DNA from: Drechmeria coniospora
Taxonomy: Eukaryota; Ascomycota; Sordariomycetes; Hypocreales; Ophiocordycipitaceae
Assembly: GCF_001625195.1 (NCBI RefSeq)
Contig: NC_054390.1
Span: forward strand, 7,475,222-7,539,221
Direction: 5' to 3'
Length of the DNA stretch: 64,000 nt
Shown here: positions 26,788 through 42,671 of the stretch, piece after piece
Position numbering within the stretch: the first letter of the stretch is position 1
Layout: each line of letters starts with the position of its first letter
Made by a program: the position numbers and the translations under genes
The notes under the pieces: model-generated
What the model was told of the DNA's origin: nothing
The model's database searches: none
What the model saw: only the letters and a program-made list of their open reading frames with translations

Positions 26788-28769
26788 CGTCAGACAATGT
26801 TTCGACTCCCGAGAAGCTGGTTCGGTTGATGGATCCGAGACAGCGTGATGCCGAAACCGACTCGGCTCGGCTCGGTCTGGATTGCCAGCGAGTCCGGCCG
26901 CGGACGGGTAACTCGCGGGGCGGGATTGTTCTCGTACGACGACCTCCGTGCTTGCTGCTCTTCGTCGTCGCTGGTCCGACGATGCGAGGCAGAGAGGATT
27001 GTAGATGTCGATGTCGACGTTTGATGGAAGATTGTTGATGATCGGTCGATGGACGAGAGACGCCGCTCCTCGGGGGCGTACGCCTACTTATACAGTCAGC
27101 AGCGGCGGCGAGATCAGCACCTCCACCGCTTCCTGCGGATGTCGACCCTCGACGACACCTAGTCATTCCTAGTCGTACCGCATGGCTTCTCCTCTCGCCC
27201 ATGGCGTGCCACTGACTGGCTCGACGGCGATGACAGCTCCACGCCGCCTGTCCAAAAGGAGGGCCAGTCTGGGGCGGGCAGATTTAGAGTTTGCGTGGGA
27301 GCGCTCGCCGGGGACTGGTCGTAGGTTGGCTGGCACTCGCCTGCACGGCGCACCACCAAGGAGCGCGACGGACGCAAGGCGTACTGTACGGAGGGCGATC
27401 GAGGTCGATGCGTGAGCCGCCGCCGCCGGGGTTGGGCTCGATGCCGTCCAGTCAAGGCCTGTCGTCACTTGACGATTCGACCGCCATTTCCTGCTGGCAG
27501 AGGACGAGGGTCGTGCCTTGGGTGCGTACGAGCACTCCCCGAAAACACCTCGCCGTCATTGTCATTGTGCGCACAAGTACCGGGTACTTGCAACACGCAA
27601 AGTAACCAGGTGTGGCAGTCCGTACTCTGTCCGTCTAGTACTCTGTGCAGTACCGAGCAGGTATTACCGATGCGCGGTGCATGACGGGTATACTTGGGCA
27701 GCAAAGTCTCGGCGAGGTAATACCGCTGTGCGGTTCAGGACCCAGCAGCATTGTGCTGTGCCAGCGTGCCAGCGCTACCTGCTAGGTACCTAAGTAGCGC
27801 TACCGTACCTAGTGCCTGCTTACTAGCAGCGCTAGTGCCAGAAGCAAGCGATCGACCGGAACTGGGACCTGGTACCTGCTGCAGCGTTGGAGCTTGCGGC
27901 AGCTGCGCGCATGTACCGACCACGTATCCCCAGCGCAAACCCGTGCGGCGCTGTACCTTGGGGTACCACGCGAGGTGCCACCATACGGATTCAGCAGTGC
28001 CGGTAATTATTTAATAATACTTTCCCGGCACCTGCCACGAAGCAAGTGCCCTCGTTGCGTCTCGAGGACAGGTCACGCGCTTCATCTCACCTTGGCCGCG
28101 GAAAGAAGCTTTGCTCTTTGCAGATGGAACACATCTCGCATGCGGTCCATGTCGTCGCAAACCGTCGAGGGCAAGCAAGGGCAAGGATGCTGGGACGGTT
28201 GGGGGAGAGCCTGCATCCCGCTGGCGCGGCGGGGGAGGGGACCCAAGTTCTGAGCATGTACTGCATTCCGTACTTGCTCTCCGCCCAGCACTCGCTCGTA
28301 CAGTGAGTGTGTAGTGCCTAAGTACTAAAGTACTACCTACCTAGTACCTGGATGAGTGCACTTGGGCCCCTACTGCGCTAGGTGCTTGGTACCGTCGTGG
28401 TGAACCACATCACCGGCGCTCGCCCCAACGAGGTGCTGCGGCCTTTCGTAGCAGGTACCGCTAGCGCTCGGCGTCCCCAGGTGCGAGGTACCTAGCGCGG
28501 CGAGGTGTGTGGTAACGTCACGCCAGCCCGCCGGCTCGCCGCCCATCGGCCAGATACTATGCGTTTATTTTGGGAACGACGAGCGAGACGGATGACGGTG
28601 ATGTCATCTCTGCTACCTCGGCTTCGACGGCCGACCGAGGATGCTCGGCCGGAACCGGGGGATGAACTGCGCCGTGCCATCGGACGACGGCGTTGCTCTC
28701 ACGGCTGCGTACATGTACCTGCACGGTGCCGCCCAGGTACTCTTGGACGATGGACGAGGCGGTACCTGT

Positions 28770-30340
28770 CGCTGGCGCAGCCCAGTGCGTGCCGCTGGAC
28801 TGCTGTGGTGTTCCATCCCGTTTTCCTGGCACCTAATGACTGGTACTGAGCAGCGTGCTGCGCTCTGTATGCGTTGTGGCCGTGTACGGAGGGCACGTTT
28901 GCGCCTCGGTGTGCAGGACAAGCTGCTACCTTGACGACACTAAGCACAGTACACCACCATGGTTAGTAGTTCTGTACGGTGTTACCCATCACCGACGCAG
29001 CCCAGTGTCGCGGGGCCACATGCTGGTGATCATGCCAATGTGCTAGGTACGGTACCTTAGTACACGTACACCTACGGAGTAATACTAGTACGCAGCGCAT
29101 CGTACGCCGTACTCGTTGCGGCCTTGTACGAGCATACCTTAACTTCAATGGTAGGGACATGAGTACTAGGTTAGTACCTAGTACGGACCACCACACGTTT
29201 CGCCTCGGTGTTGGGAGTGCGGACAAGTGCATGCGCAGATACTACTAGTACCTACGTTCCTACCTTACCTACTAAGGTACCTATGTAGGTATTTACTACT
29301 AGGTACCTAGGTGCCTTGGGTTCTGTGCCGGCACTGCAAGTGATGGAACCTGTACTGGCACCGTTGTCCACTGGCTACACACCCACCTACTACGACGTTG
29401 AAACCGTACGTCCCAACTTTGGTAGCACCCGTCATCGACGCAGCCCAGCGCCACCGGAACTGCATGCGAGCGATGCCTACTACATAGGTACTAACCTACT
29501 AGGTACCTACTAAGGTAATAGCAAGCAGCATGCCCTGTGCTGTTTGTGGCCATGTACTTAGGTCCCCAGTAGGGAGCACACGTAGGTGTGCGGGACAAAG
29601 TGCATGCCTGTATGGGTTCTGCACAAACAGGCACTGCAAGTATTACCAGTACTGGCACGTTGGCCACTGGCCTCGAGGAATACTGCACCTACTTACGGAG
29701 TACAGTACTGTAGTACGGAGTACTAGGTACCTAGTACTCGCTTGCACGTGAGGTACTAACCTTCGCACAGCACGCACCAAGGTCGGACGCGTCATTGACG
29801 CAGCACGGTGCCACTGGACCAACGGTAGGTGTTCAATACAAGGAGGTACCTACATGCACAATTATCCGCCAGGAGCATGCTCTTGGGGTCATGCACATGT
29901 AGGGAGCACACGACAAATAGATCTGTACCAGTGTGTGGGTTCTGTACCGCCACGGCAAGAATTACTTGCAAGTACAGCTAGTACTACCTAGTAGTAGGTA
30001 ATATGCCTTGTGTAGAGGCGTGACAAGTCTGGGGCTCCACGCAGCTCCAGCACCTAGTTGTCTTGGGCATGTACTGTACGTACAGTGCTGGGCGCCGTAA
30101 TCCCCCTACAAGTAATACTAGTATGCACAGAGGTAGTGCCTACCGCTGACGCAGCACAGTGCCATTTCCTACTAACCTGGCACATGCTCAATAACAGCGC
30201 TGAGCGCCGCAAGTATGCGTAGTGCTATGATGTACTTGGGCGGCACACTTCTGGTGCTGCCTTGCAAATCTGCACCTACCACCATGGCACTGTGCGTGTA
30301 GTCGCCTGCAGTGGATACAGCACAGTGCCATTGGTGCCGG
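28770..30340. repeat. Degenerate long-period tandem array (about 350-440 bp units)
   Basis: Three sub-blocks recur in the same order and orientation. One is GACGCAGC-CCAGTG-C followed by a CTGG/CCACTGG element (near 28775, 28994, 29437, 29797, 30147 and weakly near 30312). The second is a GGGAGCACACG...GTGTG-GGACAAGTGC block (near 28890, 29205, 29573, 29901). The third is a GGGTTCTGTACC-GGCACTGCAAG...TACTGGCAC block (near 29318, 29616, 29935). Spacings between first blocks are roughly 220, 440, 360 and 350 bp. The copies are heavily diverged and interrupted by GTACCTAG-type motifs. No coding potential is evident. Confidence 0.6.
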
Positions 30341-31401
30341 TGCCACCTGGTACCATGTTCCATGCCTTGCACCGGCTGTACCTCAACGCCTTGGTAATTA
30401 CTACGGCACGTTCAAGTTATTGTACTGCATACTAGGATGGTGCTTGCTATTTGCCATATTGCTGCCAAGCCTGTAATAATTGTCACGATGGATACTGTAC
30501 TGTACAGGCCGTGGTCTCCACGCAAGGATAGTGCAGTGAGTTATTACGGAGTATTACTTGTTCATGTAAGCACTCCGTCATGCGTGCGGCCATCATTCGT
30601 CCCGCCCAGCAAACGGCACCGTGCTGCCAACTCCAGGGGGTGCGCACCTTCACGCGCCCGCCTTCTTGGATTCAGTAGCGATACGTGCAAACATGTCTGC
30701 ACCTCGAATCCGTCTTCCCCTTGGCATTGGCACGCAGCCGTCTTGAGCTCGTTACAGAGTCGCGCTCGTACTATTATTATGCTGCCAGCTTCGCTGTCGA
30801 GGCCCCCTATGAAGACGCCAGCCATCACCCAACAACGCAGCCAATCACGGGCCGTGACTGGCAATGTGTAAAGTCGCAACGTCCTTTCCTCTTCATGCCC
30901 TTCCTTCTTTCCTCCTAGTCTTTTACCCTTTTTGCCATTTTTGCCCTTTTTGCCTTTCTTGCCTTTCTTTTCATCCAAAACCTCTTTTCCTCCCTTCGAG
31001 CTGACGAGGATTTCTTGCCTCCACCCTCTGGCCGCACTCGTTTCTCTCCTTCGGCCATCTGGCGGCAAGTCGTGCAACCATTCATCGACGGCAGCAGGAT
31101 GGCGTCCTAGCTGCCATTCGCGGCCGAAAATGACTGGGACGCAGAGAAGACGGCCGTGGGCTAGTTTTTCATCCTGACGGGGACGCGTGGAAAGCAAAAT
31201 GAACATCGTCCTTCTGTCACGGGGCCACGAGCTGCTGAGCTGCCCATCCACCGTCCGACCCGCGGCCAATGTCCATCGTCGGAGACGAACAGGGAAAGTT
31301 GTTCTAGGCTCGTCGGAGGCAAGGATTGCATGCATCCATCACGTTTCATGCTTCTGCGTGAAAGGGATGGCGTGAAAGGAGGGTGGCCCAAGCTCGTCGC
31401 G

Positions 31402-31549
31402 GAACAGAATTTGAACAAAGGAAGATGTTGTTGCCTATCCTTGGGCTGAATGCGAGCAGGTCACGAACCGGACACGAACAGAATTTGAACAAAGGAAGAT
31501 GTTGTTGCCTATCCTTAGGCTGAATGCGAACAGGTCACGAACCGGACAC
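31402..31549. repeat. 74 bp tandem duplication upstream of the NLR-like gene
   Basis: Two nearly identical 74 bp units (31402-31475 and 31476-31549) differ at only a few positions. Each begins GAACAGAATTTGAACAAAGG and ends near GGTCACGAACCGGACAC. Confidence 0.9.
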
Positions 31550-31713
31550 GAACAGGGAGGGCATGAACAAAGAACTCGCCCATTCGTCTGGCGGGTATAA
31601 ATACCACTGCCGCTCGTCCGGAAGCACCGGACACGAACAGGGCATGAACAAAGACTCACGGTTCGTCTGTCGAGTGAAAAAAATCACTGCCGCTCGTCCG
31701 GTAGGAAGAAGGA
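31537..31713. repeat. Imperfect direct duplication of about 85 bp
   Basis: The blocks ACCGGACACGAACAGG, GCATGAACAAAGA, TTCGTCTG-CG-G and ATCACTGCCGCTCGTCCGG (or AT-ACC variant) occur twice in the same order, at about 31537-31622 and 31625-31702. The first copy holds a TATAAATA element that is changed to an A-run in the second. Confidence 0.8.
31596..31603 (+). promoter_or_regulatory. TATA-like element upstream of the NLR-like gene
   Basis: TATAAATA lies about 445-485 bp before the candidate start codons of the NLR-like gene. It sits inside one copy of a duplicated module. A role as the core promoter is plausible but untested. Confidence 0.35.
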
Positions 31714-31785
31714 TAGCCCTCGCTCGGTCACAGACCTCACTTCTTGATAGATCCTGCCATTTCGAAAGTGCACAGCTCGCTTCGT

Positions 31786-32015
31786 GTCCTGCGTTCACGT
31801 CTATTCCTCCTGCACCGTCTCAGTCGTACCATCTGCGCCTTCACCTCTTCGCAGATCCTCCCGTCCAAAATAGTGCGCGGTTCGCCTCCTGTCCTGCGCT
31901 CCGGCATCTCGGTTCTGCACCGTCTCCGTCACACCATCGGCCCATTCACGTCTCGGCCCCTCCTTTCCTCTGAAAAAGTGCAGTCCACGTCGTGTCCTGC
32001 CGTGCTGTCCATTCA
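31786..32015. repeat. Imperfect tandem repeats of about 95-105 bp
   Basis: The blocks TCCTGC-TTC/CTCC, CTGCACCGTCTC-GTC-TACCATC and CCTTCAC-TCTCG recur in the same order, starting near 31786 and 31890, with a partial third start near 31997. All are on the plus strand and end just before the NLR-like gene. They are pyrimidine-rich and may form part of its 5' leader. Confidence 0.65.
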
Positions 32016-32042
32016 TCGGGCATCGTCCCGGCCATAAAAACC

Positions 32043-35000
32043 ATGGACCGTAACGACAACTTGGCTGCCCATACTGCAGCATGATCTGCACTGACGGTCT
32101 CCTAGGGACAATCTTCGAAAGCGAATACCGGACTTTCGGCAACTTGCTGCTCGCTCAAGTCACGGGCTTCCGGTCCGACGTTGATAAAGCCATCGGCCAG
32201 AACCGGAACCTGGAGCAAGTCCTTCGTCTGTTGCTGCCTCACGAGCAGACCATCGCTCGAGAATTGTCCAACGGAGCCCTTAGCTCTTTTCTCGTCCCCT
32301 CTCTCACCCTTGTACAGAGCGTGTGCAATACTCTACGAGCCGAGGCTGCGAAAGCCACGACGCTCGAGGCCGCCGGGACGACATCTATCCGTCGAGAGTG
32401 CGACGCCAGGGCGGATTCCATCGCACGCCAAGCGGCGATAATACTAGATACACTACACCAGCTACTCTGCCGCGTCGAGGCCAACAAGCGGCAGCTCCAG
32501 CGGTGGGAGAAATTGCATTCGAGCTTCGTCGTATCTAAAATCGGCATCATGGCACCATCGTACGTCCATCTGTTCCCCGCACCCAACACGTAACACCTGT
32601 TGATGCGAGCAATCTGACCTGGGCAGGCTGTTCGGTCCCGTCGCGCATTCTTCCCATCACGAGGAGCAAGGGAAGCGGCTCGCCATCAAACTTTGCCACG
32701 CCCTTCCCGAGGTGGATCGCCGCGCCAACCCCTCGCGAGATTCGGCTCGCTCCAGCGCGCGGCGGCAAAGACATCTGCGGGAAGCAGTCGAGGCTTACTT
32801 CCCAGCCACCTGCGAGAGTAGTGACTGGATTCTGGATGAGAGCGATCGCCGGCCGCTCTGGTGCTGCGGTGTTGCCGGCACCGGGAAAAGCACTCTCGGG
32901 TGAGAACTAAACCGTCGCCGCCGTCGGGGGGGCCGTGCGTGCTAACACGTTGGCAGTTGGCGCGTTGTCGATGCGCTGGACCGGTCAAACCGGATCTTTT
33001 CTTCGTACTTCCTCGGTTGGCGCAAGGTTCAGTCGGCCGAGCGGGTGGCGGCAAGTCTCCTGTGGCAGCTATGCGATCGAGCGAACCTTCACAATCTACC
33101 GTCGCTCGACTCGGAACCCGGACCCGCATGTCTCCAGCACCTTCTCGACGCTCTCAAGGATGTCTGCTCGACGATTGGCCAGCCTGTCCACGTCGTGCTG
33201 GATGCCTGGGACGAGGACAACATGGACGACGTCGACGCTTTCGACGCCATCCTTCGATGCCTGCTCTCCCTCAAGTGCAAGCTTTTCATCACGAGCCGGA
33301 CGAGCTCCCGGCGAGGGCACTCGGTGGATTGCGTCGAGCTCAACCTGGATCTCGAGAGAAACGAAGACGGCATTCGGCGATGTATCCGGCAAGAGCTAGA
33401 CCATCTCGCCCAGCCGACGTGCCGTGACCACGGCCGATCCCTCCTGGATCTCGGAGAGGAGCCGGTTCGACGGCTCATGGCAGAGACGAACGGGTCGTAC
33501 GTGTTGAACGGCATGCTGCTTCCATCTCGCTGAACTAACGTCTCGCAGTTTCGGGAACGCGATCATTCTCGCGCGCGTCGTTGCCGACGCCTTCCATGGC
33601 GGCACACCAATCGATCAACTTACCAACCTTCTCGAGAAGGGGGGGCCTGGAAAGATTGTGGCCCAAGATCTACGAGGCCTGGATGGCGATGCGAGCCTCA
33701 CGGGCCGGCTGGCGAGGACGACTCTAACCTGGTTATCGCTGACCCCCTATCCGCCTTCGCTCCGTGTTCTCGAGCCTGTGCTCTCGGCGGCTTGCTCGGA
33801 CCTGTGCGACGCTCAACCATCATTCAGCACACAACACGTTCTGCATCGTCTGAGGGGCCACGTCATGGTTGACCACGGCAATTCACTGATTCACATCTCC
33901 GACCTTACCAGAGATGTCATGGCCGAGGTCTGGTCAGGCCAAAACCAGGACGTCGTTCGCACCATGGCCGTCCTCTGCCTCGATACCATCGAGCGGTCGG
34001 ATATCAAGTCCGTTCTTCGCCCCGACGTGACCGAAGAGTCGATGAAGACCCTCTTGCTGGAGGATCCCCTTTTGGATCACGCTCTGCGCTGCTGGTCGTT
34101 TTACTGCAGAGAACAGCAGCGGCAACTACCCAGCGGCCTATCAGAACATGCGAGCCTGGAAGGTGATGATGCAGCGGCCGAGCCGTCCTGTCTGGCCGTG
34201 GCTTCGGACGACGACGCCGACTGTCCCGTCGATGGGGCTTGGACAATGGTCGATACGATCGAGAGTCGCCTTCAGCAACTCTTTTGCGAATCACTCGTCC
34301 TCCCCGTCGTCTTCGCCTCTGCGTTCTTCCATCCTGTTCCCGAAGAAGCAGGTCTGGGGTTTCGAGAGTTGCAGTCTCGCATCGCGTCCATGTCCAATCT
34401 ACACTTGGCCGTGCGGCTCGGATCGGTCACCCTCGTCGAAGCGGCCCTGGCCCTCTCTGCATACAGTGACGATATCAGGTATGGCGAAGGCCTCACGGCA
34501 CTTCACGAAGCAGCAAGGAGAGGCTTCGAGGACGTTGGGGCACGCCTGCTTTCTGCGGGAGCTTCCTCGGGCGCGCTAGACGAATCGAACCGGACGCCAG
34601 TGCATTACGCAGGAGGCAGCCGGAGTCATGGGCTCTTCATGCAGCTCTTCGAGGATTTCTGCCGCAGGCACTATGGTGGCAAGGACGACCGCTGGCACCG
34701 TGGTGACTATGACGACCCTGCTGTCAATGACGACATTTTGGAGCTGATAATCGGGGATTTGACTATACGGATCCCGCGCTTGGAGGCTTTCTGCCGCAGG
34801 TACCGTGGTGGCAAGGACGACATTTCGGAGCAGGCAATCTGGGATGTGACAGAACAGATCCCGCGCTACGTTCAATGCGTCACACCGAATGGACAACCCT
34901 ACGAAGCGAGACGGGACATGGCCTTGTTGAATGCAGTCAAACAGGGAAAGCATGAAGTCTGTCATTTTCTCCTCATGTGCGGCCAGGCCGACGCCAACTG

Positions 35001-35544
35001 TTGCGACGACAACTCCGTTCCTGCCCTCCACGTTGCCATCGAGCATCAAGATATTAAGGCAATGGTACACCTTCTCCATTTCGGAGCAAATCCATGCAGC
35101 ACAAGAGGGGAGGGGAAAACCCCAGCTGTCTTTGCAGCCATCCGATGGGGGTGCTATGACGCCATCGATTGTCTTGTGGCGTACGGGGCAGACCAACTCA
35201 CCGTCGACCCTCAAGGCCTGAATGTGCTGATGTTGGCAGTGAGCGAGACTCAAGGTGAGGACTCATGTGAGATTATTGAATTGTTCACCCGAAGCCCCAA
35301 CTTTCAGTACAAGCGTCAGGATGGTCGAGGGCCAGTTCACCTGGCTGCACTGCGGGGTGATTTCGACGTCATGCGTCTGCTGTTCACCTCTCGGCCCATT
35401 CCCGGAGAAGAGCTGCTTGAAATGTTGGCACCGGACGCGACGGGTATGACACCGGCTGACTTGGCGCGAGAGCACGGCCATGACAAGATATCTCGCTATC
35501 TGGATGACCTGTACAACTCCTGGTCCTGGGTGCTCAGCTGCTAA
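32043..35544 (+). CDS. NACHT-ankyrin STAND protein (fungal NLR-like)
   Basis: Four coding exons: up to 32559, then 32627-32899, 32957-33496 and 33549-35544. With the ATG at 32081 the product has 1095 residues. An alternative start at 32043 with a 56 bp intron (32050-32105) gives 1089 residues and the same frame. Residues 1-160 form a helical N-terminal region that matches no effector domain I know. A NACHT-type NTPase follows: Walker A G-V-A-G-T-G-K-S-T at about 241-249, Walker B V-V-L-D-A-W-D-E with Asp333, then a K-L-F-I-T-S-R sensor-like strand. A winged-helix-like region comes next. Degenerate ankyrin repeats run from about residue 715 to near the C-terminus, with an internal 44-residue duplication (801-844 and 845-888). 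Fungal NACHT/ANK proteins act as signal-sensing switches in non-self recognition and cell death. Convergent with a subtilisin-like gene. Confidence 0.85.
34657..34920 (+). repeat. 132 bp in-frame duplication inside the ankyrin region
   Basis: Codons starting F-C-R-R-H-Y-G-G-K-D-D at 34657 recur as F-C-R-R-Y-R-G-G-K-D-D at 34789, exactly 132 bp (44 codons) later. The second halves of both units align as well (I-G-D-L-T-I-R-I-P-R versus I-W-D-V-T-E-Q-I-P-R). Confidence 0.85.
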
Positions 35545-36060
35545 CCGCTCGGTTTATCCCCGGAGACGAGCTGCTTGAAATGATGGTGACGATTCTTCCG
35601 ATGACGATGATAAAATCAAATCAAAAACAATCCATGGAAAACGCGGTTCGGCCCTGGTAGACTTCTCTCCCAAATGCGTCATGGCTTTGACAGGACTTGC
35701 TACGAATATATTTCTTGGTGGCGACAATTCTGATGATGATAAATAGAGAAACAATTAAAAAAAAACATTTCATGGAAAGCGTGGTTCGTCACAAGTATAC
35801 TTCTGTCACAATTCTGATAATGATAAAATAAATAAAAAAAATATTAAAAAACCTTCCATGGAAAACGCGGTTCGTCACAAGTAGACTTCTCTCCCAAATC
35901 TGTCATGCACCATGTCCCCCACGATGCTCGAATATATTTCTTGATGGTGACAATTCTGATGATGATAAAACGAAGAAGAAAAAGCATTCCATGGAAAACG
36001 CGGTTCGTCACAGGTAGACTTCTCTCCCAAATATGTCATGCACCATGTCCCCCACGATGA
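35545..36060. repeat. Tandem decayed copies of the protease gene's 3' end
   Basis: The anchor CATGGAAAACGCGGTTCG occurs at 35633, 35771, 35857 and 35990 (spacings 138, 86 and 133 bp), with the last copy running into the stop codon and C-terminal codons of the subtilisin-like gene on the minus strand. Neighbouring blocks recur in order (GACAATTCTGATGATGATAAA, CTTCTCTCCCAAAT, GTCATGCACCATGTCCCCC). On the other side, 35549-35580 repeats with changes a piece of the last NLR exon (35395-35425, CCCGGAGA-GAGCTGCTTGAAATG). The whole 463 bp spacer 35545-36007 is AT-rich and made of such copies. Confidence 0.88.
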
Positions 36061-39000
36061 CCGGCTCGCCATTCCGCTGCCGCTCTCGAAGACCGCAAAA
36101 CTTTTCAAGTTTAATATACTTCCTTTCGACATCATCCGTCATGGAGCTGAAAATCTTCATAACAAGATGCGACTTCCATCTGGTACCCCCCGGCAAGTCT
36201 TGCTGCTCACTGCGGTAACATGACAGTATCAAGCAGGCAAGGCCGGCCGCGATTGCGGTGGCCGCGGAGCTCCCGGAGACCGTCTTCTCCGCTTCCACGT
36301 ACTGTATGTCACCCGCAGGGATATTGGTGGCCTGGAGGCGGAAGTCGTAGCTGGACGAGGTGCGGTTCGTCACCGAGCCGTACTCGTCTGCCGCGGCGAT
36401 TGCGATCGTTTCCTTACAGTCGGCTGGATAGGCGGCTCTCTGGTTGTAGCCCTCATCATGAGTGCTGCATAGCATGACGATTCCGAGCCTGTAGGCTTCG
36501 TCGATTGCGTTTTGTAGTTGAGTGTTCATCTCGGGTATTGTAAAGCTCATCGAGATGATGTCCACCTCTTGCTCGATGGCCCACAGGATTCCCTGTAGAT
36601 AGGAAGCCCATCCTTTCATTAGAGATCAAGTACAAGAAGCAGCACACCATTGGTGCATGTGTATGCCTCCCGTGAAGGAATGGATATGCAGGGGAAGACG
36701 AAGCCAAGTTGGGGAAGCATACCTCGACGACACGGCTCGGCTCAACACCGTTCCTGATCTCCGTGACCTGTGCCACGAAGAACTGGCAACCGGGGTCGAC
36801 GGCACCAATGAGGTTGGCCATCTGTGTGCCATGAGCATCTGACGCAAAGTGCCATGACCCCATGTGGAGATCCTCATTGACAAACGACCTGCCTTTCTGA
36901 ATTCTACTCAATATATCCTCCATAACGCGTCCTCCGAGCCCATCCTCTTCATTCTTCGGCTTCGATTCCGTCACGCTCATGATGCCACTGTCCAAGACGG
37001 CAATCTTGGTTGGCCTCCAGGGGCTCCCTGGTGACGGCACGTACGATCTGTACCCCTTGATGAACGGCCACAGTTTTGGAATCGCCACCTCCGCTCTTCC
37101 GTTTGTTTTTGTCATTGATTAGCTGCACAGTACCTCCATTCATGACAAAGTAGGGCGGGCTTACAAATGGGGACGATGCTTTTTCGTGACACCTGCCTTC
37201 GTAATCCATTTTCGGTCATGCACGTAAGTCATCAGTCTCGGCTTCTCCTTGACGAGTACTTTTAATCCACACTTGGCAAGATTCAGCAGCTCCCGCTTTT
37301 TGCGAGCGTTCAATGTGTCCTGCATAAGGAGACCGCATAATCGAGGAGTCAGTCAGCGAAGGCCGTTCCATGGTGCGGACGAAGCACAGAGCTTAGTTGT
37401 ACATGATCTACTGACATTGACGAGGTGTATTTCAAGTAACTCGAGCTTTCAAGGGATGCAAGTTAACAGATGCTCGCTGGCCGATGACGATAGAAGTTGC
37501 TAGTCGGCCAAGGCCTGCTTTCTGAATCTGAACGCACCTTTTCCAGAGTAGTAATCCCCCCTACACTCAGCCAGTGGCTCATGACCGCTCGCTTTCCGCT
37601 CCAGTAGAGGTATAGCTCTCTGAGATTCTTTCTCGTATTGGGTGTGATAACATCAACGCTGAGGGCGAAGTCCAAGCACTTCCAGTCAAGAATGGCCACG
37701 TGGAACTTGTCTAAATAACCGCCAATGCGTGCTTCGTCATGTGGCTTGTACATCCGATCCAAGACCTGAATTTGAATAATTTCCTGCACCATGTGCGTAT
37801 CGCGAAGCCAGTCGAGAATTTGAAACACTTCGTCATTCTCTTGGAGTAGGTCGACATCGGGATCTTCACCCTTCTGGCTCTCCAAGCCAAGGTCTGGAAA
37901 TCTGGCATACCGGAGTGTCTGTTCATAGTTCAGCCCTTCGAGATGGGTAGCATTTTGTTTTGTCAAGCTCTGGACGAACCCGCTGAATGTGTGGCTTCTG
38001 GTTGTGACCATGGAGGTTTCAAAGCAAAGCTCCCCATCTACCCAGGGTTCGCAGAAATGAGTGACGATTCAAGCTCCAGCAGTGGGACCCAATACGGCAG
38101 GTCTTACGTGGTTCTGAACTGAGTCAAAACAAAAATAATAATAAGAAGGGGGGACGGGGGACCAAGGCTAGGGTGCGATGCAACGTACCATTTGATCTCT
38201 CCAATATCTGCCGGAGTGCCTGCATGTTGTCAACGACTTTGATGCATGCATTAACAAGCTTCCTCCTTATATCCTTGCAGGGAGTTTCCCTACGCTTCCA
38301 CTCTTTGCCGGACTCGACAAAGTTGTTGTGCCACAGCGGAACGACGCTTCGGTCCTCAGGCATATTTGATAGAGAGGGCTCGAGATCCGTCCCTTTGATG
38401 GCCGACATTGGGTCCTCATTCACGAAGCTCTCCACAAATTTGTATTGCTGCCACCTGACAGCTTCTGTGAGAAAATCGAGGCCCGGGTCGATACGCTTGA
38501 GTGATTCCCAGGCCGTTTGGACCGAATCTGTTTCCCACATGTCCCAACGGCCGAGGCGGATGAGGTTTGATACAACGTCTCGATCAAATGCGCCTGGGGA
38601 AAGTTCCAAGATTCTGCCTGCTCCCCATGTTCTATCAAACGCAACCGCCGTTGTCAACAGTGTCCTGGCCACTTCCCGCGACGATCTTATCAGATTACTC
38701 GCTGCTTTTTGGCTTCTACTCCACGTCCATACGTCTTCCCGGTTATTTTCCATGATCCATGTTGCAACCTTGAGGCTGAAGCAGTCGCCGATTCCGTACA
38801 TGTCGAGCGTCGCGTTCGCCACCGTGGCAGTGTCAAACCTCAGAATGTTTATGATCCAAGTTAACGATGTCGCATCTCGTGGTGCTAAACGCAGAATTTT
38901 CTCTGCTACTGCCCATAATTTTTTCGTCACGGCAAGTTTGTAAAACCTTTCACTCTGTTCAATTCGCTGGTTGAAGTTCAATATTCGTTCAATGATGCTC

Positions 39001-39749
39001 ATGTATATCTGCATGTTCTCAGAGTCGCAGTCGAACTTCATCATGGCGAGCTCCAGTGCATCACAAATCTCTTCTTCAAACCCTCGGTCCACGTGCTGCC
39101 TCATAGCGGAATTTTGTAGTTGGTTGAAGAGAATATCGACAAGGGGCAGCATGCCGCTTCTCACAGCGTGTTCGAAAGGTGACAAATCCTTGGCCCTGGG
39201 CAAAGCTTGTTTGTGATGTAGATGTGCTTTGCTTGAGCATTTCCATTCAAATTCTGTCAACGGGACCTCTTGGTGCTGGGTGCCTGCCGAGTTGAATTTA
39301 TCCATCATCCCTTTACCACCATCGATAAACTCCCCCGTTATCGGGCTGTGCCCGGATCTTTGGAATGCCAACACGGGGTTTATCTGGATCAAGAGCTTGC
39401 CCAACTCAGTTCTGCCCTCGTCGTTGAGAATATCTCCGCGTTGAGATTGGTTTTGTTTGCAGGCAAACAAAAGTAGGCTCCATCGAACGCAGTCGTCAAT
39501 ATAGTGCTTGTATTCTTCGGCTTGAAGGATGGTTCGAACGGCGTCGTGAGCACCCAAATCCTTGGATTTGGTGATCGCCGTGACAAAACCGTGATACAAT
39601 TGTTTAATATATTCGACAAACGATGGATGGTCCGTCGTGGAGACGGGACGTGGCAGTGTCGACACGATGTGGTCGATGATTTGTATACCGGGCGATCTCT
39701 CCGTTGGACTCGCATTGGTCCATTCATTCTCGGTACGTGTTGTTGCCAT
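36008..39749 (-). CDS. Intracellular subtilisin-like serine protease with long N-terminal helical domain
   Basis: Five exons on the minus strand (39749-38189, 38037-37538, 37319-37165, 37095-36723, 36592-36008) give 1057 residues. The N-terminal ~690 residues are helical, with ankyrin-like stretches (for example S-P-F-E-H-A-V-R-S-G) and no signal peptide. The C-terminal S8 domain keeps the triad: Asp at about 774 in A-V-L-D-S-G, His at about 827 in A-H-G-T-Q, and Ser at about 972 in S-G-S-S-A-A-T. It therefore looks catalytically intact and cytosolic, unlike secreted subtilases with propeptides. S8 modules in such a setting are known as effector parts of fungal NLR systems. The intron at 38188-38038 could also hide a 6-base exon. 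The acceptor at 37096 is chosen because the nearer AG gives a stop. The 3' end is amplified downstream (see repeat). The link to the neighbouring NLR is inferred. Confidence 0.85.
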
Positions 39750-40238
39750 AATGTGAGCGTCACGAGTTTCAGGTCATGCGTCGACAGTCGTCGCCAGTGT
39801 AATATTGAAAATCAAATCATGGCTATAGACTTCGCGGACGAAGGCATCTAGTTGTACGGTTTTCAGCAGACAAGGGGTTCGCTCCCCTCTCGCTGCTGGA
39901 TGCCTTTGAGCTGGATCAATCAAGGAGGGGTTCATTTGCAACCCCTGGAATACATCAGACGTTGCTTACTCTTGGCTGATCGAGTGGCGGCGTCATGTGC
40001 ATACACCTGTCTGCAATAAATATCGGTCCGTCATTAAAGGGACATACAGTACTCACTCACCTACGTGAATACTCCGTTGATGAGTGAAGACATTGATTTC
40101 TCTTTGTGTATATGCAGATCGGTTGACGGTTTGCCTCTCCTTACGGCACAAGCACATCATTAGCCATGCCATTTCGTCGGCGCCTTCACCGCTGCTAGCC
40201 GCCTGATGCCCATCATTTCCCTGGTCCCCTGATGCCTG
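39750..40238. other. Promoter region of the subtilisin-like gene
   Basis: 489 bp between the protease start codon and the stop codon of the next minus-strand gene. AT-richer parts lie at 39785-39850 and 40010-40100. Apart from a short minisatellite at the right edge, no feature is seen. Confidence 0.5.
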
Positions 40239-40280
40239 TCATAGTCCCTGGTCGCCTGATCCCTTCATCCCTGCTAGGTG
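40195..40280. repeat. About 27 bp minisatellite overlapping the end of the 336-residue ORF
   Basis: The blocks GCCTGATGCC-ATCAT and TCCCTGGTC alternate about three times (starting near 40200, 40228 and 40254). The repeat crosses the stop codon at 40239 of the minus-strand gene, so its last residues (G-S-G-D-Q-G-L) are encoded by the repeat. Confidence 0.75.
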
Positions 40281-41249
40281 CAGTTGACTCTCTTCCACAA
40301 GCACGGCGCCGGCTTCCTGTGCTGAAGCCGGCAGCTTTGGAAATACGAGTCGGTGAAGCACATCCTTGGTTCCCAGCTCTCCCATATTGTTCTTGTAGCT
40401 CTCCGTCAGCTTCAAAATGTGATGCCCCTCATAGCGGACCTTGGGGGCATCAACGTCCGGCTGAACGAGAAAGGGCTTCGTGATTCCGGGTCCGCATCCA
40501 AACACTTTGAGTATGTTGTTCTTCAGATTGAACATGGTGCCGGCGACTACATCAATCTCGAACTTGACGACGTATGCCGCCGTCACCGACGCCCGCCGGA
40601 GGAGCACTGCGAGGTGGATGACCGGGGGGGGGTCGTTTCCCAGCAGCTTGTTCTGTGAAAAGCACCATTCGATGCCATTTCGCTTGCCGCTATCCTCGTT
40701 CATCAAGGGGAAGGCAGTCCTCATGTCGAAGGCGGTGTGTTCGAAGCTAAGCTCTTCCGTACTGCCCCATGCACCCGATAGCTCGGCAAACTCCGCCTTG
40801 ACTCCGGCGCCGACCTCTATTCGGTCTGATTTCTTCACGCCAACCAGAGTTGCGTTGCTTCTTTCTGGCTCCTTGAATGGCGCCCAGGTCTCGATTTCCG
40901 GGTCGGCCTTTTCGCCGGACGGCCGGCTCTCAAACTCCAGCTTCGCCGTGACTCTCGTCGCCTTGTTGGACTTACTCCGGCAGTTGACTGCCAGCTTGAG
41001 GATGAGAAGCGTCATGGGGCTTTTCGAGTTGGGAGACTCCCAGCCATCCATACCCAGGAGGCGCTCGACGGTGACATGATAGTCAGCGTGTCGTTCCGTG
41101 TCGTAGATCAGCCCCGTTTCGCTGTTCCCGGGACGGTAGGTTCTCAGCGTTCCAGCCGTAGCGGACTCCGATTTCTTGGGCATGAAATAGCAGGGGAGGG
41201 GGTCCTCGTCGTCAAAGTCTGCGTATTCGTCGTCCATGGCGAATGTCAA
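40239..41249 (-). CDS. Conserved-looking protein of unknown function
   Basis: A single-exon frame of 336 residues that I do not recognise. It starts with an acidic patch (M-D-D-E-Y-A-D-F-D-D-E-D). The body alternates polar residues and short hydrophobic strands, for example T-L-L-I-L-K-L-A-V-N-C, V-T-A-K-L-E-F, A-A-Y-V-V-K-F-E-I-D-V and V-I-H-L-A-V-L-L-R-R, which suggests an all-beta, C2-like or immunoglobulin-like fold. There is no signal peptide, no membrane helix and no visible catalytic motif. Codon use and composition are coding-like, and the frame is long relative to shadows on the other strand. It sits directly behind the protease gene on the same strand, inside the accessory island. 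A partner or substrate of the protease or NLR is one possibility, but nothing in the sequence proves it. Confidence 0.7.
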   Translation of the reverse strand: MTFAMDDEYADFDDEDPLPCYFMPKKSESATAGTLRTYRPGNSETGLIYDTERHADYHVTVERLLGMDGWESPNSKSPMTLLILKLAVNCRSKSNKATRVTAKLEFESRPSGEKADPEIETWAPFKEPERSNATLVGVKKSDRIEVGAGVKAEFAELSGAWGSTEELSFEHTAFDMRTAFPLMNEDSGKRNGIEWCFSQNKLLGNDPPPVIHLAVLLRRASVTAAYVVKFEIDVVAGTMFNLKNNILKVFGCGPGITKPFLVQPDVDAPKVRYEGHHILKLTESYKNNMGELGTKDVLHRLVFPKLPASAQEAGAVLVEESQLHLAGMKGSGDQGL

Positions 41250-42671
41250 AAAGGCTGGTCAATATTGGCGGCACCGCAACCTGGAGATGAAGCGGTCGTC
41301 CTCGGAGGCTTTGTAATTTTAGGAGAGAGCTTCGTTTGTCATGATGCTGAACGGTCAACGAGCTTTATGTACGACCCAAGCCTGGCAGAGAATGAGTTGG
41401 AAGAAAGGCCGTTGTCGCAGTCCTTGTAGGGACCACGCGAGTAGGAGGCGAGTAGGAATATCATGGCGCCGTAACAACGCCATGCCTGACAGAGGGAGCA
41501 GGCGCCATGCCGCACAAGATCCATGTTTCCACTCCAAAGAAGCGTACGCCTGCGCTTACGGCCTGAGAGCATGGGGGTGCTCCGCTCTTGGACCGACGAC
41601 TACACCAATGATATCAAGAAAGTCATGCTTTTTGCAAGGTATCACACGGCACATGCCACGGCGATGACGGCCAAGTCGCACATTTGGCCCTCGTGGTTCT
41701 TTGACGTTCCACGCAAAGTTGCTCCGATTTCGGATCCAATGGTATCTTTGCCAATCGCTGGCTTGCGGCGGCATGAATTGAGTGACGAAAACATGACGAA
41801 AAGGGTCAAAGGCCGAGGTCAACAGCTGCACTGATGATGGCCCATGGCTGCCTGCCTGGGGCGAGGAAAGCAACGAGGCTAAGGCTGAGATGATTATCTG
41901 CAAATGCGGTTACGGCCAAGTAACACAGCATGGCCAGGCGTGGGGGTACATGCACACGTGAAGGCGTTTACCAAAACGTCAGTACCGCCACAGGTGCGCT
42001 CACAAGTTTCAAAGACCTGAGCAGAATCCTCCAATACCGCAGTAGGAAGGGATGCTGAGTTGAGCCTGGGCCGAAATAGGCTATCTGTGATCCGGAGGAG
42101 TTGGGTTGGCCTGGCAAGAAAGAGACTCGGAGGACTAAAGTTGAGCGAAGGGTGAGCTGGTTGTGGGCAAATACCCGAGATTTAACAGAAAGGCGTGCCG
42201 CATCACGTGGTTTGGAGATAATCACCTCGAATGGCTGCATGCCGTCTATCGATCCGTTGCTCTCGACACTGTACGTGTCATCGTCTGGGCGAGTCCTGTA
42301 CGACGTAAATCATCGGGCAGATTGTCTGCATCCTGTGCAACTCAACTTTGGACTCGTACCGGCTCGATTGTCGTACGGTTGTATTCTGCACATTGCATGC
42401 AGTGCCAGGTAGCTAGCTTAGTATTAGCTAGCTACCAGTGGTGGTACCATGGAGGACGGATGCTTACCATAAACATGCACCGACGGATAAGCACATGTAG
42501 CCTCGCATCGCCCAAGGCCCGTCTCGCCGTCCTTGCTCCGACGGCTCTCGAGGCCCCAGCGCGGTCTTGACGAGGCGAGGGCCAAACGCCTCACACACTC
42601 ATTCTTCCTGCTTTTCTTCCTGCTTCCTTTCGCATTCTTGCCTTGAGCCGTGCTTGAGTGAAAAGGCGGCA
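41250..42671. other. 1.4 kb divergent spacer at the right edge of the island
   Basis: This lies between the start codons of the unknown protein (minus) and USB1 (plus). Small open frames are present but overlap on both strands without family signs. No clear repeat array is seen. A GCTAGCT palindromic patch lies near 42412-42433. Confidence 0.5.

Follow-up and report, generated by a model that had tools for sequence, protein, structure and literature searches.

A putative two-gene cell-death unit in Drechmeria coniospora: an S8 protease beside a predicted hemolysin/leukocidin-fold protein

Introduction

Published accounts of regulated cell death in fungi describe pore-forming proteins of the HeLo and gasdermin types, and the S8 proteases of the HET-Q2 and Q2-like clusters are described there as often carrying ANK, TPR, or WD40 regions. 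The present analysis concerns a window of 64,000 nucleotides (C2:7475222-7539221) from a 32.83-Mb, 28-contig assembly of Drechmeria coniospora, a fungus described as an endoparasite of nematodes (PMC4859500) and as having few NLR or incompatibility genes. Within this window, a gene for an S8 subtilase (hereafter S8) adjoins a gene, here called U, whose product has a predicted hemolysin/leukocidin fold. We put at roughly 0.58 the probability that U and S8 form a two-gene unit of regulated cell death.

The S8 protease

Relatives of the two proteins were collected in searches that each scored only the roughly 8,000 candidates with the most words in common, giving 34 S8 and 36 U proteins with the D. 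coniospora record included. The S8 gene lies on the minus strand at 36008-39749 and is modeled with five exons (39749-38189, 38037-37538, 37319-37193, 37093-36723, and 36592-36008) encoding 1047 residues, with a long N-terminal region that is ankyrin-like in relatives. The nearest database entry, the D. coniospora record RJ55_01510 (P0037), matches the Pfam S8 family PF00082 with an E value of 7.9e-19, and all 34 S8-family proteins match the same model. This record differs from the gene of the window by three substitutions and by its splice choices. Given the substitutions, the gene has been recorded in two or more versions, which probably stem from two strains. RJ55_01510 also skips a stretch after residue 520 (window 37538-38189) that is kept by relatives, e.g. 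ELCFDLSRFNSK; the five-exon model is therefore probably nearer in this part, and the omission looks, from the sequence, like a probable splice misprediction.

In P0037 numbering, the catalytic residues are Asp729, His782, and Ser927; none of them varies among the 34 aligned proteins. An S8 gene with Asp, His, and Ser intact, convergent to a STAND gene, had been described in a first-pass annotation of this DNA, and that description holds. The 34 proteins likewise share an Asp at residue 864, aligned by eye with what we take to be the position of the oxyanion-hole Asn of subtilisins. Some active convertases, of which PC2 is an example, carry Asp at this position; a literature search on Asp in the oxyanion hole found no papers.

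A sequence search of the PDB links the catalytic part to subtilisins (best E 1.4e-13), and comparison with NCBIfam returned S8 rows under the curated cut-offs, together with chance rows. The Pfam model Ank_2 matches 20 of the 34 relatives, and a Pfam ankyrin match is absent from the D. coniospora protein. In its own genome, S8 finds its own exons and one remote subtilase-like match (29% identity, residues 816-991). Its N terminus has no strongly hydrophobic stretch, and both S8 and U are presumably cytosolic.

U and its predicted fold

U is encoded by an intact single-exon open reading frame (ORF) at 40239-41237, also on the minus strand, with a spacer of 489 bp (39750-40238) between U upstream and S8 downstream. 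The unrecognized protein of 336 residues previously listed here is thus a real gene, uninterrupted from 41237 to 40239, with a corrected length of 332 residues. U has one match in its own genome, its database entry is listed on two contigs, and its family of 36 proteins includes the window's own (P0001). Tandem copies of a 27-bp unit (x2.6, 40200-40268) extend across the U stop codon, at the place where most relatives run on into a linker and coiled coil.

Structural work used an alignment (A2) of 33 of the 36 proteins, the fragments P0026, P0028, and P0035 being left out; a second alignment (A4) holds all 36 together with P0046, a record described below. Comparison of the AlphaFold model with the PDB predicts a core (residues about 42-265) with a fold of the hemolysin/leukocidin beta-pore-forming type. 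In both fold searches, the matches listed at E<=0.001 all come from one superfamily, and the matches align over about 150-200 residues. Residues about 128-166 of the model are a low-confidence segment rich in Gly, Ala, Ser, and Thr, which may be the stem hairpin. At the sequence level, no Leukocidin family match was found by Pfam among 33 members at E<=1, the best rows of PDB sequence searches with U, P0002, and the U profile had E values of 0.24 or worse, and PADLOC recognized none of the five proteins submitted (three U and two S8). A pattern scan of genome contigs for bacterial relatives of U yielded 40 stretches, none of which was confirmed.

These searches bear on three other views of U. 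It could be a divergent fungal gasdermin, making the pair an ordinary fGSDM/Q2-like cluster: the gasdermin genes of such clusters likewise lie next to an S8 protease gene, U and gasdermins are both beta-rich, and many gasdermin homologues have been described in several Trichoderma species in published accounts. However, a search of PDB sequences with the 33-protein U profile brings up no gasdermin at E<=10, the Pfam gasdermin match is absent from all 33 members at E<=1, and no gasdermin is among the 50 matches listed per fold search, although such a listing does not exclude one. We judge this origin to be quite improbable. A second view, that U is a beta-sandwich substrate or regulator of S8 that forms no pore, within a unit with some other cytosolic signaling role, would fit its low fold TM-scores and low-confidence stem segment, as well as the coiled-coil tail of most members, which could serve as a scaffold; the restriction of the best fold matches to a single superfamily in both searches argues the other way, and we consider it unlikely.

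The hemolysin/leukocidin fold is chiefly familiar from secreted toxins. U might accordingly be thought an exported toxin directed at nematode prey or competitors, as would suit an endoparasite of nematodes (PMC4859500). Against this, a strongly hydrophobic N terminus is found in none of the 36 members (highest 12-residue hydropathy mean 0.99), by simple hydropathy, which is not a signal-peptide predictor, and with some fragments among them, and the partner S8 likewise has none. In addition, Trichoderma, a genus not known to share this lifestyle, accounts by name for 21 of the 36 members. An exported toxin is therefore a very improbable identity for U, and an intracellular pore-former remains the reading that we prefer.

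Co-occurrence of U and S8 in other fungi

Relatives of U and S8 lie on one contig in nine pairs: in D. coniospora; in Trichoderma afarasin, T. pleuroticola, T. compactum, and T. chlorosporum; twice in Trichoderma CBMAI-0020; and in Gyalolechia and Brigantiaea. For these last two, which are lichen metagenome-assembled genomes (MAGs), the locus numbers of U and S8 are consecutive; the numbers are separated by gaps of 5 and 8 in CBMAI-0020, 4 in T. pleuroticola, and 59 in T. compactum. Contig sharing means much where the contigs are of 21, 43, 189, and 206 kb. In one of the 34 S8 records, P0046 of Cercophora samala, a U domain (residues 12-408) precedes the S8 part. The identities of U and of S8 between relatives are correlated (r 0.79, p 0.0004) over 10 pairs, including P0046 split in two. 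The first-pass annotation had held that finding its three genes at unrelated loci in most relatives would speak against a module; for U and S8, the nine same-contig pairs and the joint record are what was found, and the point thus does not apply to these two.

The U and S8 proteins of the lichen MAGs (P0014/P0048 and P0016/P0047) are 43-61% identical to the Trichoderma copies, versus 30-33% for those of D. coniospora. This similarity may be due to transfer, or the lichen sample may have contained another fungus.

A proposed mechanism

Building on features that were computed (intact genes, the catalytic triad, co-location in relatives, and the predicted fold), we infer a cytosolic location, a cue, cleavage, pore formation, and death. 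S8 would be a cytosolic sensor-protease, the helical or ankyrin-like N-terminal region of which detects a foreign or perturbed cell component. Upon detection, it would cleave, or otherwise free, U, which is presumed to be soluble and intracellular and to have the hemolysin/leukocidin (beta-pore-forming) fold. Freed U would assemble on one of the cell's own membranes, with its central hairpin converting to a beta-barrel, and the resulting pore would kill the compartment, so that neither a parasite nor foreign cytoplasm could spread as far. The logic would be that of S8 protease/gasdermin systems, with a different executioner.

The broader proposition is that ascomycetes possess another type of intracellular executioner that forms pores, with a hemolysin/leukocidin fold and under the control of an ankyrin-S8 sensor protease, amounting to a pyroptosis-like process with a non-gasdermin pore. 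The odds of this appear to us to be even. A search of titles and abstract openings, in a collection with few subscription papers, found among the papers listed no leukocidin/hemolysin-type proteins described as fungal death proteins or as S8-paired executioners. If the proposition is true, then a sensor-protease plus a pore would be a general plan fitted with different pore-formers, and a function would be suggested for an unannotated family of Trichoderma and other ascomycetes. The system would also be compact and testable in yeast, and D. coniospora would keep a death module of another make despite its few NLR and incompatibility genes.

A number of observations weigh against the two genes forming such a unit. 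In searches that each scored about 8,000 candidates, a same-contig pair was found neither for 27 of 36 U proteins, among them 8 whose contigs do not exceed 20.2 kb, nor for 25 of 34 S8 proteins; of the latter, 24 are without any U found, P0046 being the 25th. The locus numbers, which need not reflect gene order, are far apart in T. chlorosporum (205155/325486) and T. afarasin (322158/315334), sharing of a multi-megabase contig is weak evidence, and species descent explains part of the correlation between identities. P0046 may be a true fusion, but it may also be two neighboring genes annotated as one. The U models have mean pLDDT values of 65.9 and 66.8 and are not independent, because the underlying alignments overlap. 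TM-scores by query length are 0.13-0.30 among the matches listed, the stem segment is without confident structure, and in none of 33 proteins does the putative stem exceed its shuffles at 5% in beta-type hydrophobic moment. Finally, a C-terminal coiled-coil tail, recognized by motif in 25 of the 36 members, is lacking in D. coniospora U, and therefore any tail that holds U inactive is missing here.

The neighboring STAND gene

Convergent to S8, and separated from it by 463 bp that contain short tandem repeats (35545-36007), lies a plus-strand gene at 32081-35544, the spliced model of which encodes a NACHT-class STAND protein of 1095 residues. As the first reading of the DNA had it, this is a NACHT-ankyrin gene: NPHP3_N (PF24883) is matched with an E value of 1.1e-15, ankyrin repeats are present, and the Walker A motif (GVAGTGKST) is intact. 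The sole match of its ankyrin-side exon in its own genome is itself. The NPHP3_N profile gives six matches at five places in the genome, including 32820-33299 of the window, and NACHT (PF05729) gives one, of 30.2 bits versus a cut-off of 26.7. These matches occur although a published analysis, in its account of this fungus, reports no NACHT proteins (PF05729) and discusses the loss of NOD proteins (PMC4859500); the newer Pfam model detects STAND-type matches in this assembly.

It had been suggested that the locus is a split death or defense module, and one version would have the STAND protein sense and activate S8, which then acts on U. The three genes are contiguous and intact-looking, and death clusters of two or three genes are known in fungi from reviews, as are some NLRs with S8 domains. 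However, the NPHP3_N and NACHT models match none of the 34 S8-family proteins at E<=0.001, nor do such matches appear among precomputed annotations, and STAND and S8 are convergent rather than co-oriented. Because their locus numbers are consecutive, U and S8 have no annotated gene between them in two fungi, and because NPHP3_N occurs at four other places in the genome, its presence next door is unremarkable. Such a three-gene module is, in our view, quite improbable. What survives of the suggestion is that a protease probably acts with a separate neighboring gene, the supported pair being S8 and U and not NACHT-ANK and S8. No support was found for NACHT-ANK as the partner of S8, and it is kept as a rival.

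The surrounding DNA

The flanking genes belong to the CPSF/RSE1 (CFT1-type), Pal1, HVSL (USB1-type), and CKS families, conserved housekeeping genes that agree with the CFT1, PAL1, USB1, and CKS1 named at first. The long repeat-rich DNA reported alongside them was not recovered: 28000-30400 and 31300-32060 each match the genome at their own place alone, in a search that passes over simple repeats and very common words. Local tandem arrays are present at 31402-31555 (74 bp x2.1) and 35724-35902 (86 bp x2.1, with incomplete copies over 35581-36059). The single-copy stretch at 28000-30400 lies outside the U/S8 unit and has few long ORFs; its composition at 28001-30000 is strongly like that left by repeat-induced point mutation (TpA/ApT 2.12, composite 1.27). 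None of the four ORFs scanned in the gene-poor DNA, out of many listed, contains a Pfam domain, and a transposon origin was rejected given two single-copy stretches and four ORFs without a domain.

Comparison with known systems

One close likeness is to the gasdermin HET-Q1 with its S8 protease HET-Q2, and to the Q2-like/fGSDM clusters, described in Podospora anserina and other fungi, in which a small pore-former adjoins an S8 protease, as the candidate U does here. The likeness extends to the intact catalytic residues of the protease, which in such clusters is of the S8 or CHAT type and here keeps them in 34 of 34 proteins, and to the clustering of the two genes in several species (nine pairs, two of them consecutive, and one joint record). 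As a difference from such systems, U gives no gasdermin match by sequence or among the fold matches listed; a hemolysin/leukocidin fold is predicted for it, and most members have a linker and coiled-coil tail. As in the ankyrin S8 proteases that act as Q2-like sensors, an S8 domain follows an N-terminal region, with Ank_2 in 20 of 34 relatives, but the D. coniospora protein has no Pfam ankyrin match, and the family carries Asp at the presumed, eye-aligned position of the oxyanion-hole Asn. Fungal NLRs with an S8 effector differ in that NACHT or NB-ARC and S8 share one polypeptide, an arrangement seen in none of the 34 S8 relatives.

With the het-S/NWD2 and HeLo-domain NLR clusters, as published, the locus shares a sensor side by side with a putative pore-forming executioner, whereas those clusters use amyloid signaling and a helical executioner in place of a protease and a beta-rich protein. 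Bacterial proteins such as the staphylococcal leukocidins and Vibrio cytolysins resemble U in the predicted fold of its core, over about 150-200 residues, and possibly in the low-confidence central segment at the place expected for the stem. U differs from them in having no Pfam match and no strongly hydrophobic N terminus, in being fungal, and in being paired with an S8 protease, and its role, unlike that of the bacterial toxins, would be directed at the cell that makes it.
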